64,000 nt of DNA from Acidithiobacillus caldus ATCC 51756 (lineage in GTDB: Bacteria > Pseudomonadota > Gammaproteobacteria > Acidithiobacillales > Acidithiobacillaceae). The stretch is from positions 124,001 to 188,000 of the forward strand of contig NZ_CP005986.1 of assembly GCF_000175575.2 (NCBI RefSeq). Direction: 5' to 3'. The notes beneath the pieces are model-generated. The model had not been told where the DNA came from. It saw only the letters and a program-made list of their open reading frames with translations, and did not search any database. Both the position numbers and the translations under genes were made by a program. The first letter of the stretch is position 1. Every line of letters starts with the position of its first letter. This document shows positions 25,008 through 48,852 of this stretch, piece after piece.

Positions 25008-26567
25008 ATGCCGGCGGAGCCGATTGCCATGCACAAGATCAAGGAGCTGTTACGGCTCAAGTACGACTGCGCGCTCTCGCACGAACAGATCGCCCGCGCG
25101 CTGTCGATTTCGAAAGGGGTGGTCGCCAAGTATGTGAAGGCGGCCGAAGTCAGCGGCCGACCGTGGGCGGAGCTGTCCGCTACCGACGAGGCCGAGCTGC
25201 GCCGTCTGCTGAGCGTCGGCTCGCGCGGCCGCGGGGCGAGTCTCGGCTACGCGACGCCGGACCTGGCGGCGGTGCATCAGGGCCTCAAGCAGAAGAACGT
25301 CACGCTGGCGCTGCTGTGGGAGGAGTACGTGCAGGCGGCCGACGGGCCAGCCTACCAGTACTCGCGCTTTTGCGACCTGTACCGCGAGTTCGCCCGGCGC
25401 CTGAAACGCTCGATGCGCCAGGTGCATCGCGCCGGCGAGAAACTCTTCATCGACTACGCTGGCGACACGGTACCGATCGTCGATGCCGCGACCGGCGAGA
25501 TCTCGCGGGCGCAGATCTTCGTCGCGGTGCTGGGCGCATCGAGCTACACCTTCGCCTGCGCCACGGCGACACAGTCGCAGGCCGACTGGCTGGGAGCGAC
25601 GGCAAAGGCGCTCGCCTTTATCGGCGGGGTGCCCGAGTTGATCGTCCCGGACAATACGCGCTCGCTCGTCGGCCAGGCCGACCGCTACGAGCCGCAATTG
25701 CAACGCACGACTGCCGAATTCGCCGCGCATTACGGCGTGGCGATCCTGCCGGCGCGCCCCTACAAGCCGCAGGACAAGGCCAAGGTCGAAGTTGGCGTGC
25801 AGGTCGTGCAACGCTGGATTCTCGCGCGGCTGCGCCATCGGCGCTTCTTCTCGTTGATGGAGCTCAACGAGGCCATCGCCGCCCTCATCGAACCGCTGAA
25901 CGCACGCGCCTTCCGGCGCCTGCCGGGGTCGCGTCGTAGCGCCTTCGAGACGCTCGACCGGCCGGCGCTGCACCCGCTGCCGGCGACCGCGTTCCAGTTC
26001 GCGACGTGGAAGCGGGCCAAACCCAACATCGACTACCACGTCGAGTTCGACGGCCACTACTACAGCGTGCCGTATGCGTTGGCCGGTCAGGCGGTGGAGC
26101 TGCGCATCACCGCGAGCAGCATCGAGTGCTTCGCCGCCGGCAAACGTGTCGCGGTGCATGCGCGCAGTCACCGCCGCGGCGCCTTCACTACACTGGACGA
26201 GCACATGCCCGCCTCGCATCAGGCGCACCGTCAATGGACGCCGGGCAAGCTCATCAGCTGGGGCACCGCGATTGGTCCGCATCTGGGGGAGGTGGTGCGC
26301 TACCAGCTCGAACGCATGCCCCATCCGGAACAGGGCTACCGCGCCTGCCTCGGCCTGATGCGGCTCGCCCGCCAGTACGGCAAGGAGCGCCTGGAGGCCG
26401 CCGCGACCCGCGCCGTCACACTCGGCGCGATGCGTTACCGCAGCGTCGCTTCCATCCTCAAGAGCGGCCTCGACCGCGCCCCCTTGCCCCCGACCGCCCC
26501 GCAGCAGGCCGAACTCGCGTTGCCCACCGCCCACGAGAACCTGCGCGGCGCGCACTACTACCACTGA
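25008..26567 (+). CDS. istA: IS21 transposase IstA
   Basis: This 519-residue DDE transposase has an N-terminal helix-turn-helix ([20 protein letters not shown]). The integrase core includes [17 protein letters not shown] (first Asp), [11 protein letters not shown] (second Asp) and [20 protein letters not shown] (Glu). The C-terminal Mu-type region contains [19 protein letters not shown]. The length is normal for the family. An alternative start at 25029 ([13 protein letters not shown]) is possible. It works with the IstB ATPase 22 bases downstream. Confidence 0.93.
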
Positions 26568-26589
26568 TTTCTACCACCGGAGCCACACA

Positions 26590-27324
26590 ATGCTGATGCA
26601 CCACAGTCTGGAACAACTGCGCGCCCTGCGTCTGGAAGGCATGGCGCGCGCCTTCGAGGAACAGCTCGCGCAGCCGGCAATCGCCGCCCTCAGCTTCGAG
26701 GAGCGCTTCGCGCAACTCATCGACCGTGAGGTGCTCGCGCGCGATGGCAAGCGTATCGACCGCCTGCTCAAGGCCGCCCGCATCAAGGTCGGCGGCGCTT
26801 GCCTCGAGGACGTCGATTACCGCGCCGGGCGCGGCCTCGACCGCAGTCAAATCGCCGCACTCGCAACGGGCCACTGGATTCGCCAGCACCAGAACTGCCT
26901 CATCACCGGCCCGACCGGCAGCGGCAAGACCCGGCTCGCCTGCGCGCTCGCCAACGCCGCCTGCCGCCAGGGGCTCTCCGCGTACTACGTGCGCCTGCCA
27001 CGCCTCTTCGAGGAGCTGCGTATCGCGCACGCCGACGGCAGCTTCAGCCGGCGGCTGATGCAGCTCGCCCGCCTCGATCTGATCGTCATCGACGATTGGG
27101 GGCTGGCCGCGCCCTCGGCGCAGGAGCGCTCCGACTTGCTGGAGCTGCTCGACGACCGGGTCGGATCGCGCGCGACGCTCATCACCAGCCAGCTGCCGAT
27201 CGAGCACTGGCATACCTACCTGGGCGATCCGACCTTCGCCGACGCGATCCTCGACCGCGTCGTGCACGCCGCCCACAAGCTCGCCCTCACGGGCGAGTCG
27301 ATGAGAAGAAAGGAGAAGGCATGA
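26590..27324 (+). CDS. istB: IS21 helper ATPase IstB
   Basis: The 244-residue AAA+ ATPase has Walker A GPTGSGKT, Walker [11 protein letters not shown] and the IstB start [19 protein letters not shown]. It assembles on target DNA and directs the IstA transpososome. It has a normal length and an intact frame. It ends with a basic tail (MRRKEKA). Confidence 0.93.
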
Positions 27325-44329: not shown

Positions 44330-45525
44330 TGGTTCACCGCGAAGAGCACCGGAACCCCGAGAAAAGTCCCCCAGGCCTTGGCGGAAGCTCGCTGAATCGC
44401 AGGGATGTCAGTGCCCCTGGCCCACCAGTCGTTCGCCGGAGCCAGCAGAACCTGTGGGCGGTGGAGTGCCAGATTCAGCGCAGGCCACATCAGCAGTTGT
44501 TCGTAACAGATCAGATACCCTACCCGCAGGCTCCCAACCCGGGTCATTTCCGGCCTCTGGGAAAAGGGGGCCATGCGAAAACTTCCTACGGGTGTCCAGG
44601 GGTGCCACATGGAGAATGGGACGGGAATAGTATCGGGAAGCACCCGAGTCCGCCCGTCGTGGATCTGCACGAGCGCGTCCACGTAGCCGCGACCATGGGG
44701 GACGAAGGTACCGACAAATACCGTCTGGCATGGATGATCGGCGGTCCAGTGCACCACCGGCCTCCAGATGTCCTCCGTCCCGACCAGCCAGAGTCCAGCT
44801 ACGGTCTCCGGCAGCAGAACTATATGGACACCCTTGTGCAGCAATGCCATGGTGCTTCGCTCCAGTCGCATCGAAGCCTCGACGTAGGACAGCGGCGAAT
44901 CGAGATGCCCCAGGCGGGTATTCACCCCAACCCAACTGGCAGGAGCAGGATGGCGCGCGGCCAGCACAAGCGATCCCGCCCCCAAGGCGGCGGCCGTGCC
45001 GACACCAATCACCAGCCCGGCCAATGCCGCTTTTCTGCCCAAGGCTGCCAATGCGATACCGAGCAACACCAGCATCACGCCCGTCCATCCCTCCGAGATG
45101 GCCCCCAGCCAGGGAGAGGTCCATCCAATGATCCCCAGTGGGGGAAGGATGGTGGAGATGGCCGACAGCAAAGCCGTGGTCACCACTCCGGCGCAGGGTG
45201 CCCCGATCAGTGATCGGGACTTACGAAAGATTGGGCTGTAGAAGAAATAGGGGAGAGCAAAGATCAGCGACGATCCGGTCCAGAAGGCCAAGCCCAGAAG
45301 CAAACCGGCAGACGGAAAGAATACCGCCGTTCCGTGAATGAGCCCCCAGGTGGTTGCCAGGTGATAACCGAGCATTAGCAGGAACGGTCCCGCCCAGCCA
45401 CGGAAGGCAACGGATGGGATTGCCACCAAGGCCGCAGGAGCAAGCCAAATGGCGTGAGGCCAGGAGAGCCAGCCGATGGCCGCGCCGATCAGAAATGGAG
45501 TCAGGAGATGGATTGCTTGCTTCAT
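44326..45525 (-). CDS. traB: Conjugal transfer protein TraB (Lnt/nitrilase-like)
   Basis: The 399-residue protein has about six N-terminal membrane segments followed by a carbon-nitrogen hydrolase domain. The domain has a Glu in IVLLPETVAGLW, a central FVGTFVPHGRGYVDALV and the Cys motif GYLICYEQLLMWP. It ends with PANDWWARGTDIPAIQ. TraB of Ti/IncP-type conjugation is an apolipoprotein N-acyltransferase relative that assists transfer. It is the first gene of the operon. Its start codon coincides with the TGTCGG end of the neighbouring transposon, so the native N-terminus may have been altered. Confidence 0.85.
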   Translation of the reverse strand: MKQAIHLLTPFLIGAAIGWLSWPHAIWLAPAALVAIPSVAFRGWAGPFLLMLGYHLATTWGLIHGTAVFFPSAGLLLGLAFWTGSSLIFALPYFFYSPIFRKSRSLIGAPCAGVVTTALLSAISTILPPLGIIGWTSPWLGAISEGWTGVMLVLLGIALAALGRKAALAGLVIGVGTAAALGAGSLVLAARHPAPASWVGVNTRLGHLDSPLSYVEASMRLERSTMALLHKGVHIVLLPETVAGLWLVGTEDIWRPVVHWTADHPCQTVFVGTFVPHGRGYVDALVQIHDGRTRVLPDTIPVPFSMWHPWTPVGSFRMAPFSQRPEMTRVGSLRVGYLICYEQLLMWPALNLALHRPQVLLAPANDWWARGTDIPAIQRASAKAWGTFLGVPVLFAVNQ

Positions 45526-45533
45526 GTCGGGGT

Positions 45534-45570
45534 GTTACGTCCCGCGATAATTTCGGCGTAACGTCCCGCG
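45534..45570. repeat. Tandem 13-bp repeats at the transposon/traB boundary
   Basis: GTTACGTCCCGCG (45534-45546) and GTAACGTCCCGCG (45558-45570) repeat with 24-bp spacing. A weaker GCGTCCCACGCG follows at 45595. They fit transposase-binding sites at a transposon end, or operators of the traB operon. Confidence 0.65.
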
Positions 45571-45634
45571 CTATTTGAGGGCGAACAAGCGGGTGCGTCC
45601 CACGCGGGTTTAGAAGATACGCGCACCCAGAAGA

Positions 45635-45658
45635 GCACGGGACGGCGTCATCCCGTGC
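45635..45658 (-). terminator. Hairpin downstream of the transposon operon
   Basis: GCACGGGA (45635-45642) and TCCCGTGC (45651-45658) form an exact 8-bp stem with an 8-base loop, 8 bases behind the last transposon gene. There is no T tract, so termination would be weak or factor-dependent. Confidence 0.45.
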
Positions 45659-45665
45659 GATGGGT

Positions 45666-45863
45666 TCAGAACGGTGGATGGGATTCTGCGGACCGGATCC
45701 GATGAGCCCTGGCCTGGGCGCCGTAGCGGCTCTCCAGCAGACTCCCCAAGGCGTCGACGAAGTGCAGCAGCGCCGCTGCGGCCTCATCGGACAGCCCTGC
45801 CGGGAACAGCCGGTCCCAATCCTCCAGCAGGGCATCGGCCTCGTCGATTGGCGGAGCCTTCAT
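45666..45863 (-). CDS. Small acidic protein of the transposon operon (65 aa)
   Basis: It starts at the ATG at 45863 overlapping the ATPase stop (ATGA). The sequence is acidic and helical (PIDEADALLEDWDRLFPAGL; DEAAAALLHFVDALGSLLES). A longer reading of this frame overlaps the ATPase gene and is a shadow. Its coupled position in the transposon operon suggests a transposition accessory protein. The family is not recognised. Confidence 0.55.
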   Translation of the reverse strand: MKAPPIDEADALLEDWDRLFPAGLSDEAAAALLHFVDALGSLLESRYGAQARAHRIRSAESHPPF

Positions 45864-46660
45864 CGTAACGCCTCGATGGCGGTCTGGATCAGGTCGTCGG
45901 GCAGATGGTTCAGCCCCTTGGGCACGGCCAGGCGCAGGGCCGTGTGGAGGACGTTGCCGGCCTGCCGTGGGCAACCCTTGGATGCCTGGTGGAGCAGCTC
46001 CAGGCCGGAGTCGGACAGCAGGGTGTGCGAACAGCCGGCGGAGCGGAAGGCATGGGTGATCAGGGCGGCGAAGCGCTCTCGCTCCAGGACCGGGCGCAGG
46101 TGATAGCGGACCCGGATGCGACTGGCCAGGGCGGCATAGGGAACCCGATCCAGGGTTTGTGCGAGGCTCGGGTGGCCCACCAGCCAGACGGTCAGCAGAT
46201 CCCGAGAGTCGAAGGCGAAGTTGAGGAAGGCCGGGAAATCGCGGAAGAAGTCCGGGGGGAGGTTCTGGGCTTCGTCCAGGATCCAGACGGGTAGGACCTG
46301 CTTGTTCTCGACCAAGTCCTGGATGCGTTCCTTGAGGTCTTTCCATAAATGGGCGCGGCGGTAGTGGGGTTCGACGCCCAAGGCGCGGCCCAGAGCGCGG
46401 TAGATATCGACCCGGCCGAAGTCCGTGTCGGACTGGTAGACGACGCGGTAGCGATGGGGATTGAGTGGCTCGGTGAGCAGGCGCAGGGTGGCGGTCTTGC
46501 CCACCCCGGGGTCGCCGGTAAGCAGCCCGAGGCCGGGAGTGTGCAAGAGCCATTGGAAGGACTCACGCAGACTGGCAAGGCTGCCGTCGTCCCAGAGTTC
46601 CGGGGACTCTTTGCTCAGAGGTAGATGTTTCAGACCGAAGTGTTGGAGAAGCATGGTCAA
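45860..46660 (-). CDS. ExeA/TniB-like AAA+ ATPase of the transposon
   Basis: The 266-residue ATPase begins LLQHFGLKHLPLSKE, the typical ExeA-family start. It has Walker A GDPGVGKTATL near residues 49-59 and Walker B PVWILDEAQNLPPDF near 124-138, then WLVGHPSLAQTL and a C-terminal GCPRQAGNVLHTALRLA. Such ATPases (TniB, TnsC, MuB relatives) bind target DNA and activate the DDE transposase. It overlaps that gene by four bases. Confidence 0.85.
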   Translation of the reverse strand: MTMLLQHFGLKHLPLSKESPELWDDGSLASLRESFQWLLHTPGLGLLTGDPGVGKTATLRLLTEPLNPHRYRVVYQSDTDFGRVDIYRALGRALGVEPHYRRAHLWKDLKERIQDLVENKQVLPVWILDEAQNLPPDFFRDFPAFLNFAFDSRDLLTVWLVGHPSLAQTLDRVPYAALASRIRVRYHLRPVLERERFAALITHAFRSAGCSHTLLSDSGLELLHQASKGCPRQAGNVLHTALRLAVPKGLNHLPDDLIQTAIEALR

Positions 46661-47970
46661 CCCTCCTTCTTGCCGTAATACTGCCGATGGGCGATCTCGA
46701 CCAGGCTGCTGCCGGTTTTTTCGGGGGCATCTGGGGCCGGACTGGGCTTGTGGCGGCGACGTTGGGCGTTGGCTTCCAGATCCAAGGGGGTAGCCGGTCC
46801 CAGATCCTCGCCGGTTTCCTTCTCTACGCGAAGGACGCGCTTGCCGTGGGGATCCACGACCAGGGTGACGGCTTTGCCGGCAAGTTCGTAGGGGACTTCG
46901 AAGCGCCGCCCTTCCCAGGAGACGGTGCCATCCTTGCGCACCTTCCGGGGGAGCCGGTGATAGAAGAGATCATCGATCCGGGGAGCCTGGATGCCGAGGC
47001 TGCGGATATGGGGCAAATCCTGCTGGTAGCGCTGCAGCGGTGTGAGCCCGGCCAACCCGCCATGGGGCCGCTGGTGATAGACCTGCTCCAGCCAGGCCCA
47101 GAGGCGGGCGTTGAGGTCGTCGAGACCGCGAATGGCCCGTAAATCCAGTTCGCTGAGGAACTGATCGCGGAAGGTGCGGTGCCAGCGCTCCAGCTTGCCC
47201 TTCCCCTCGGGGGCATAGGGGCGGCAGTAGATCAGCGCGATGCCCAGGTGGACGCAGATACCTTGCAAAGAGGCCGAGCGGTAGGCGGCGCCGTTATCCA
47301 CCACCAGTTTCCGGGGCACGCCCCGCTTGAGCAAAGCCTGTTTGAGGACGCCCTCGATATCGAGGGCCGTCTCTCCGAGACAGAAGGCGCTGTGGGTGAG
47401 GAGCCGGGAGGCGTCGTCCATCAGGGAGACGAGATAGACCTTGCGCGGTTTCCCATGGAGGGAGATCCGGGGGCCATGCAGCACATCGCCATACCAGACA
47501 TCCCCGGCATGGGCGGCGACGAAGCTGCGTTTTTCCTCTGGCGCCCGTTCCTCGGGCCGGGACAGGCCATGATGTTGCAATAGGCGGTGGATGGCCGAGC
47601 GCGACACGCTCCCCAAGGGGACTTGGCCGCTGCTTTCCAAGAGCAGCACGATCTGCCCCAAAGAGCGGCGGGGATTCTCCCGCTTGAGCACCAGGATCTG
47701 TTCCTGAACCTCGGCGGCGATCTGGGACCGGCCGCGGTCCCGACGGGGACGGGGCGCGAGGCCATCGATCCCATGATCCCGATAGGCGTAATACCAAGCG
47801 GCGATGGTCTTGGGGCTGAGCAGGGTCCGGCGGGAACCGGGGACCTCGTAGTGGCGCTCGGCCAACTCCCGGACCAGGCGCTGGAACTCTCCCCGGTTCA
47901 AGGAGCGGTGCAACAAGGGGCCGAGTACCGACAAGCGGAACAAGGCCACTGGATCGATCGGTTTGGTCAT
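46657..47970 (-). CDS. DDE transposase with Mu-type C-terminus
   Basis: The 437-residue protein has N-terminal helix-turn-helix segments (LLSPKTIAAWYYAYRDHGID; RSLGQIVLLL). The rve core has Asp in DVWYGDVLHGP, Asp in LVVDNGAAYRSASL and Glu in PEGKGKLERWHRTFRD. The C-terminal part (FYHRLPRKVRKDGTVSWEGR) is like Mu/IS481-type proteins. It is paired with an AAA+ ATPase, as in Tn5053/Tn7-superfamily transposons. The frame is intact. Confidence 0.87.
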   Translation of the reverse strand: MTKPIDPVALFRLSVLGPLLHRSLNRGEFQRLVRELAERHYEVPGSRRTLLSPKTIAAWYYAYRDHGIDGLAPRPRRDRGRSQIAAEVQEQILVLKRENPRRSLGQIVLLLESSGQVPLGSVSRSAIHRLLQHHGLSRPEERAPEEKRSFVAAHAGDVWYGDVLHGPRISLHGKPRKVYLVSLMDDASRLLTHSAFCLGETALDIEGVLKQALLKRGVPRKLVVDNGAAYRSASLQGICVHLGIALIYCRPYAPEGKGKLERWHRTFRDQFLSELDLRAIRGLDDLNARLWAWLEQVYHQRPHGGLAGLTPLQRYQQDLPHIRSLGIQAPRIDDLFYHRLPRKVRKDGTVSWEGRRFEVPYELAGKAVTLVVDPHGKRVLRVEKETGEDLGPATPLDLEANAQRRRHKPSPAPDAPEKTGSSLVEIAHRQYYGKKEG

Positions 47971-48103
47971 GGCAATTCCTCATGGGGCAAAAACGCAGCC
48001 CCATGCCACCAGAACCGCCCCCATCGTGGGGAGAGGGTAAAGTGTGTGGGGTCAATCTGTGGGTGGGTTTTCCTCCGTCTCGCCAGGATCAGCGTGCCAA
48101 AGA

Positions 48104-48637
48104 TCAGGGGACGGTGGCATCGTGGCTATCGAGCCAAGCAACCAGTTCAGAGAGCGGTTGCCGATCCAGGACCTCGACCCAAAACTCCGGCCAGCCGGGT
48201 GTGCGCCCCCAATGGGGATGATCGGTACACAGATGGAATTGCCAGAGGGGATGCCGGCCTTGGAGCCAGCGCAACCAGCGGCGGCAAGTATCTCGGCTGG
48301 GTCCAAAGCGCAGGCTGGTGAACGACAAGGAGAAACTCAGCCACAGGTACAGCAAGACGCACTGCTGGATGGCCCAGCCATACCAGCGTCGTGGGGCTAC
48401 ACAGGAAGGCAGTCGGGAACACGTGTGGCGGCAGCGTCGGCAATAAAAGCGAGGGATCCAGACGGGGTTTTCCGGCCCCCGAGGCGAACGGTCCGCCTTG
48501 CGCTCATAGTGGCCATGGTGCCAGGGGTGACCAGACCCACAATGGGGGCAATGCGCTGGACGATAGCGTTCTTGATACTGGGCAAGGGTTTCCCGGTGTT
48601 GTTGTAAGGACAGAATACCAGCTACGATGCGCTTCAA
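48104..48637 (-). CDS. DUF6431-like zinc-ribbon protein of the transposon
   Basis: The 177-residue protein carries two Cys pairs (CPHCGSGHPWHHGHY near residues 30-44 and FYCRRCRHTC near 63-72), forming a zinc ribbon like those at the N-terminus of many transposases. After it comes a helical hydrophobic segment (WAIQQCVLLYLWLSFSLSF). Such proteins are found next to DDE/ATPase pairs in several acidophiles and Firmicutes (recalled association, not checked here). It may help recognise transposon ends or target. Confidence 0.65.
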   Translation of the reverse strand: MKRIVAGILSLQQHRETLAQYQERYRPAHCPHCGSGHPWHHGHYERKADRSPRGPENPVWIPRFYCRRCRHTCSRLPSCVAPRRWYGWAIQQCVLLYLWLSFSLSFTSLRFGPSRDTCRRWLRWLQGRHPLWQFHLCTDHPHWGRTPGWPEFWVEVLDRQPLSELVAWLDSHDATVP

Positions 48638-48852
48638 GGGCAGATCCTCCAGGTTGAGCAGGTTGGAACGTCTCGAAAGCTTCCTACCATACCCAAGGGG
48701 AGTCTGCCCTTCCTACCCTCCTAGCTGTCCCAGTTTATCCAGGAACTGTTTCCCATAATCCCTCCAACGGAAAGCGGGATAACTCGCTTCGCTGATTCTG
48801 AAATAACGAAAGACGTAACACGGGGTATAGACCGACAGAAGCAGAGATAGCG

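Follow-up and report, generated by a model that had tools for sequence, protein, structure and literature searches.

The window analysed here, a 64,000-nucleotide stretch of the Acidithiobacillus caldus ATCC 51756 genome (NZ_CP005986.1, positions 124,001 to 188,000), carries a complete transposon of 3,288 bp at window positions 45533–48820. All four open reading frames (ORFs) of the element lie on the minus strand, in the operon order DUF6431 zinc-ribbon protein, DDE transposase, ATPase, and small acidic protein (Table 1). A first-pass annotation, made from the sequence alone, had described a four-gene transposon at 45525–48837; the element and all four ORFs were confirmed, with the DUF6431 gene first and the small gene last, whereas the limits turned out to be slightly wide. 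The 4-base overlap between the transposase and ATPase genes, which had also been pointed out, reads TTGA, and an alternative ATG for the ATPase is located at 46654, two codons further. The ATPase gene and the small gene share the four bases ATGA. Pfam searches assigned the first protein to DUF6431 (PF20020; 28.9 bits, cut-off 26.6), the transposase to rve (4e-14) and Mu-transpos_C (24.6 bits, cut-off 21.7), and the ATPase to AAA_22 (2e-25); the 65-residue protein had no Pfam or NCBIfam match.

Table 1. Positions in the window of the genes and DNA features of the transposon, with the evidence for each.
Feature	Position	Strand	Evidence
DUF6431 zinc-ribbon and helix-turn-helix (HTH) protein, 177 aa (C30, C33, C66, C69), first start TTG	48104..48637	-	ORF, PF20020, alignment, AlphaFold
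DDE transposase, 437 aa: HTH region, rve core D162 D225 E261 (DD35E), Mu-transpos_C	46657..47970	-	ORF, Pfam, alignment, PDB search
AAA_22 ATPase (MuB/TnsC/TniB-like), 266 aa, TTG start over the transposase stop	45860..46660	-	ORF, Pfam, PHROG
Small acidic protein of 65 aa with two predicted helices; gene shares ATGA with the ATPase gene	45666..45863	-	ORF, relatives
Target-site duplication copy CGGGG	45528..45532		Direct repeat flanking the element; single (as CTGGG) in the G011 empty site
Target-site duplication copy CGGGG	48821..48825		Direct repeat flanking the element
Terminal inverted repeat TGTTACGTCCCGCGATAATT, operon 3' side	45533..45552	+	End comparison, second copy, genome-wide scan
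Terminal inverted repeat TGTTACGTCTTTCGTTATTT, DUF6431 side	48801..48820	-	End comparison, second copy, genome-wide scan
Internal direct repeat of the end	45555..45576	+	82% to 45531-45552
Leader hairpin	48636..48711	-	3' arm over the Shine-Dalgarno sequence and DUF6431 start codon; 5' arm upstream of a TGnTATCGT-like block
Conserved intergenic motif CCCCACACACTTTACC (consensus CCCCACACACTTTGCC)	48036..48051	-	Comparison of spacers

The edges of the transposon were fixed by a second copy in the same genome (L002; G000:C2 137929–141207), which is 97% identical over 45529–48821. A genome-wide scan with the end pattern returned four matches only, namely both ends of both copies. The joined flanks were used as a query against 29 genomes of the family, and one relative (G011) was found to have an uninterrupted site; a gapless 234-bp alignment crossed the junction, with the five bases present once, as CTGGG. 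In the window, the element sits just upstream of a traB-like gene. Since the second copy shares the edges, CGGGG flanks both sides, and G011 keeps the uninterrupted site, the element is complete; the edges, the 5-bp duplication, the empty site, and the gene set establish 45533–48820 as a self-contained transposon of the Mu/Tn7 superfamily.

Both ends start with TGTTACGTC, and the whole element reads TGTTACGTC...GACGTAACA. A comparison of relatives showed conserved repeats within both ends. In the right end, on the 3' side of the operon (40 non-redundant sequences), they lie at 0, approximately +31, and approximately +62, with an inverted copy near +105; in the left end (19 non-redundant sequences), they lie at 0 and approximately +38, with an inverted copy near +90. 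Ends built from several sites are expected for transposases of the TnsB/MuA type. We examined 86 loci for ends and duplications and obtained 32 copies with both ends readable, 26 of which were flanked by a repeat (21 of 5 bp, three of 6 bp, one of 7 bp, and one of 4 bp). The elements ranged in length from 3,277 to 3,470 bp, and some contigs were exactly one element long (e.g., L055, L086, and L094). The target preference, determined from 21 duplications, was weak and CCTGG-like, at no more than 0.5 bit per position; this is evidence against site-specific targeting, and no flanking attachment site was found in the 21 duplication sites. Exclusive targeting of plasmids was rejected, as the copies in Accumulibacter ACC003 and AB_14 lie on contigs of 0.58–3.6 Mb. 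In C. necator UYPR2.512, all five listed copies were on plasmids.

The initial placement of the element in the Mu/Tn7 superfamily was borne out. The best match of the transposase profile in the PDB was TnsB (2.6e-10), followed by IstA (8.6e-8), and the PHROG matches were of the MuA/MuB type for both the transposase (4e-49) and the ATPase ("DNA transposition protein," 2e-23). A PDB sequence search with the ATPase returned Cdc6 only (0.0029). The catalytic residues D162, D225, and E261 were invariant across nine aligned transposase sequences. Thus, the transposase is closest to TnsB/MuA, and the element has the tested features of the Mu/Tn7 (TnsB–TnsC) superfamily. The locus could otherwise be read as an ordinary insertion sequence, IS481 or IS21, whose neighbouring genes are there by chance, given that IS481 was the best NCBIfam match of the transposase (205.7 bits) and that some relatives are labelled IS481 in database records. 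However, this score is under the cut-off of 224; the transposase has a Mu-transpos_C domain and an adjoining gene for a MuB-like ATPase, and all four genes lie within defined ends and co-occur. Membership in IS481 was rejected because of the sub-cut-off score and the four genes within the ends, and a chance gene cluster because of the defined ends and the co-occurrence, so we regard an ordinary insertion sequence as highly improbable.

Comparison with known systems demonstrated both shared and distinguishing features. With Tn5053/Tn402 (TniA, TniB, TniQ, and TniR) and the Tn7 core (TnsB, TnsC, and TniQ/TnsD), the element shares a TnsB/TniA-like transposase and a TnsC/TniB-like ATPase. TGT...ACA ends, a 5-bp duplication, and repeated end sites are also common to these transposons and the window element. 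The features of Tn5053, Tn402, and Tn7 were partly taken from excerpts of PMC9527255 and PMC4739549. Unlike these systems, the window element encodes a zinc-ribbon DUF6431 protein and a small helical protein, and TniQ, TnsA, and a resolvase were not detected: the four window proteins and a set of 59 DUF6431 proteins had no Pfam match to TniQ, and the four genes, which fill the element, had no domain match to a TnsA nuclease or a TniR resolvase. By this gene content, with no TniQ, TnsA, or resolvase found, the element falls outside Tn7-like and Tn5053-like transposons as strictly defined. With phage Mu (MuA/MuB), it shares the PHROG matches of the transposase and ATPase and the Mu C-terminal domain, but the element is 3.3 kb long, has no phage genes, and includes the DUF6431 protein. 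IS21 (IstA/IstB) likewise combines a DDE transposase with an AAA+ ATPase in overlapping genes and gave the IstA structure match; however, the window ATPase belongs to AAA_22 and not to IstB, and two further conserved genes are present.

The gene set was then followed through 79 loci obtained in one scan of named genomes, with transposase identities of 54–73%. The DUF6431 gene was upstream of the transposase gene in 74 of them; four of the remaining five had too little upstream sequence (contig ends), and L047 retained a C-terminal DUF6431 remnant only. The ATPase gene was downstream in 77 of 79 loci (L066 is interrupted, and L108 ends), and the small gene was found in 61 of the 70 loci in which it could be assessed, 60 times at the ATGA overlap and once, in L084, as a homologue starting 45 bases on. 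The possibility raised at the outset, that the DUF6431 and small genes might be absent from most relatives, is therefore refuted by these counts. A different ORF occupied the place of the small gene in L098, L099, and L104; in L098 and L104 (L104:5602–6597), the replacement proteins of 323 and 331 aa start at the same ATGA overlap, and that of L104, the one scanned, belongs to AAA_25. Distances between transposases correlated with those between DUF6431 proteins at 0.82 over 35 elements (best of 2000 permutations, 0.41); the values for the ATPase and the small protein were 0.88 and 0.59, respectively. DUF6431 is co-inherited with the transposase.

The element is uncommon: a transposase match at E<=1e-30 was found in 5 of 398 sampled genomes of the phylum and a match at 1e-40 in 3 of 57 relatives, the window's own genome being included in both counts. 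A relative has two broken transposase copies (L019 and L020; G022:C1 136084–139210; 73% identity), each with one TGA, which lie about 2 kb apart and point in opposite directions. The plasmid-borne order of zinc ribbon, DDE transposase, and ATPase was present in Geobacillus, Metabacillus, Ruminococcus, Alicyclobacillus, Planococcus, and Rhodococcus, and also, at about 29% transposase identity, in the Tn6049-type element of Cupriavidus. Sporosarcina and Thermobacillus also carry a zinc-ribbon gene, which had escaped annotation; in Streptomyces canus, no ATPase is annotated beside the transposase. The small fourth gene of an Alicyclobacillus element (L115:5137–5373) matched DUF5348, which, by this match, may be a Firmicutes form of the small transposon protein. 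Thus, the family is widespread, with members in Proteobacteria, Firmicutes, and Actinobacteria.

Compared by eye, 21 of 22 records with Tn6049-type zinc-ribbon proteins also listed a transposase; for the actinobacterial zinc-ribbon type, 28 of the 60 listed matches (67 in total) adjoined a transposase match, and at least 17 among the matches listed had no transposase nearby. Four standalone DUF6431-HTH genes, on Mycobacterium and Rhodococcus plasmids (L122, L123, L124, and L127), had no transposase or ATPase match nearby; they are candidates for remnants or domesticated regulators. From the co-occurrence counts and these standalone loci, it follows that DUF6431 is strictly kept within the transposon yet able to exist alone.

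The named element with the same layout is Tn6049 of Cupriavidus metallidurans CH34, represented by L027, which we equated with Tn6049 by host, copy number, and a matching end, and not by a sequence record of that name. It has the same order of zinc-ribbon protein, DDE transposase, AAA_22 ATPase, and small protein, while its transposase is about 29% identical to that of the window, and its zinc-ribbon protein had no Pfam match to DUF6431 at E<=1. The published 12-bp ends of Tn6049 are TGTGCaTaAGCA with 4-bp repeats (PMC4739549, in excerpt), as against TGTTACGTC and 5 bp in the window. According to excerpts of PMC2864759, Tn6049 is about 3.5 kb long and occurs in CH34 in 12 copies with a gspA-like ATPase, and its transposition module "could not be categorized" (PMC6210171, 2018, in the part available); the accessible sections of PMC13192273 and PMC3384475 add nothing on its mechanism. 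The first-pass annotation had suggested a distinct transposon architecture. The architecture is not wholly new, as Tn6049 has the same gene order, though its module was reported as uncategorizable. No description of the family, or of DUF6431 as a transposon part, was found in print in the open-licence literature covered. The layout is common to many bacteria, with one distant named relative and no agreed family name found. New findings are the ends in full, internal repeats included, and a hairpin with covarying arms that spans the ribosome-binding site and start codon of DUF6431.

The DUF6431 protein is likely to be a DNA-binding protein, as predicted from its domains and model. The four cysteines were invariant in the 59 sequences of the set, of which 57 matched PF20020, 20 HTH_28, 43 the ISL3 transposase model, and 13 IS1. 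The AlphaFold model (predicted local distance difference test score, pLDDT, 91.4) consists of a beta part with the cysteines, an HTH within approximately 88–139, and C-terminal helices. Foldseek returned no match to it at E<=0.001; VIA-align superimposed mainly the HTH onto DNA-binding domains (Z<5), with no TniQ chain among the matches listed, and the PDB sequence search gave only weak RNA-polymerase zinc ribbons. In ISL3 and IS1, related modules of a zinc ribbon and an HTH are fused to, or frameshifted with, the transposase, whereas the window module is a separate protein beside a transposase of another family.

TniQ also consists of a zinc ribbon plus an HTH, as in DUF6431, and DUF6431 could accordingly be its functional counterpart, a protein that binds DNA on the target side and loads the ATPase. 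It is a third conserved component beside TnsB- and TnsC-like proteins, and TniQ accompanies such proteins in Tn5053 and type V-K CRISPR-associated transposons (PMC9527255, in excerpt). However, none of the proteins searched matched a TniQ model, and the 21 duplications revealed no more than the weak CCTGG-like preference at the target. We consider this role rather unlikely.

The leader of the DUF6431 gene contains an inverted repeat that encloses a promoter-like block; its 3' arm holds the Shine-Dalgarno sequence and ends at the start codon. In an alignment of 39 leaders, 82.7% of cells were paired, compared with 75.3% in shuffles and no more than 47% in slid registers, and 33 double-change cells were counted, compared with 7.2 in shuffles (reached in 0 of 500). 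RNAalifold recovered the stem core unprompted. An arm of at least seven perfect pairs was present in 28 of 48 leaders (shuffle mean 1.2, maximum 5), and single folds of six leaders gave z-scores from -1.7 to -7.4. In distant relatives (12 to 15 loci), the fold-back arms gave no clear signal over shuffles, with hairpins visible by eye in some. The covarying hairpin over the ribosome-binding site and start codon of DUF6431 counts among the observed features. It could instead be a DNA operator for a DUF6431 dimer, since the inverted repeat flanks a promoter-like block beside the DUF6431 gene; but the arms covary while pairing persists, where an operator would be expected to keep its sequence rather than its pairing, and the 3' arm terminates at the start codon. 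We therefore regard an operator as unlikely. In IS10 and IS50, fold-back of the leader protects against read-through transcription, with a stem over the start codon and an outer arm upstream of the promoter. The DUF6431 leader resembles this layout, with a supported stem and a presumed promoter position. The hairpin guards DUF6431 and not the transposase, which suggests that DUF6431 is the limiting component; alternatively, it might act through translational polarity on the genes downstream.

The 133-bp spacer between the DUF6431 and transposase genes contains a second conserved element. Under a strict pattern, 34 of the 43 non-redundant spacers have a CCCCACACACTTTGCC-like motif 64–80 bp ahead of the transposase start; variants were seen by eye in the other nine, and look-alikes occur in Firmicutes. 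DUF6431, the transposase, or a host factor may bind there.

Taken as a whole, the data are best explained by a Mu/Tn7-type transposon with DUF6431 as an obligatory cofactor and a fold-back leader, an explanation that we hold to be moderately likely. The four genes would form one operon. The transposase would bind the repeated end sites via its N-terminal HTH region and join the two ends to the target at positions staggered by 5 bp, and the MuB/TnsC-like ATPase would deliver the target DNA and activate the transposase. The products would probably be cointegrates resolved by the host, because the element has no TnsA-like nuclease or resolvase. DUF6431 would act on target DNA or on the element itself, at its ends or at the internal CCCACACACTTTGCC site, and would not be simply a repressor. 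In transcripts reading in from outside, the leader hairpin would hide the DUF6431 start codon, so that outside transcription would leave transposition off; an internally started transcript would be without the 5' arm.

DUF6431 might, however, be a regulator of the InsA kind, one that binds the ends or the leader and controls the transposase operon from outside the transposition complex. Its zinc ribbon and HTH are those of the IS1/ISL3 DNA-binding modules, it has its own leader, and the 133-bp spacer with the conserved motif precedes the transposase gene. Conversely, hiding the start codon on read-through transcripts would be counterproductive for a repressor, and DUF6431 is kept in every complete relative among the 79 loci. 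A regulator therefore seems somewhat unlikely, and an obligatory DNA-binding cofactor is favoured over a plain repressor because of the kinship with ISL3/IS1 modules, the near-universal retention, and the guarded translation. Several observations weigh against the cofactor and fold-back explanation. Standalone DUF6431-HTH genes on actinobacterial plasmids fit a regulator; the nine loci without the small gene include the most divergent members; and the window DUF6431 starts on TTG, most relatives doing otherwise. A sigma-70 scan found no promoter within the element, the putative DUF6431 promoter was placed from the TGnTATCGT-like block only, and the 39-leader covariation alignment left out seven leaders without this block, which the 48-leader count kept. 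The second copy has no target duplication, and the duplication is absent in 5 of the 31 other copies with both ends readable. The right-end region of the second copy has diverged over approximately 200 bp, and later rearrangement or recombination would fit its missing duplication.

Elsewhere in the window, two ORFs (519 and 244 aa) at 25008–27324 have the appearance of an IS21-like istA/istB pair, with other transposase-like fragments beside it; the window is rich in mobile elements.

A bolder reading, which we hold to be less likely than not, is a separate DUF6431 branch of Mu/Tn7-type transposition, in which a zinc-ribbon–HTH module of the ISL3/IS1 kind would serve as an independent, obligatory subunit in place of TniQ. 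This subunit would bind DNA at the ends, inside the element, or at the target and would be limiting for transposition, and the fold-back leader would make DUF6431, not the transposase, the control point. The cassette of DUF6431, transposase, and ATPase, with or without the small protein, is currently annotated as scattered "IS481," "ExeA," and "DUF" genes. Its recognition gives DUF6431 a context and Tn6049 a family, and provides a minimal 3.3-kb system of the TnsB/TnsC type without TniQ, in which the role of the third subunit is directly testable.

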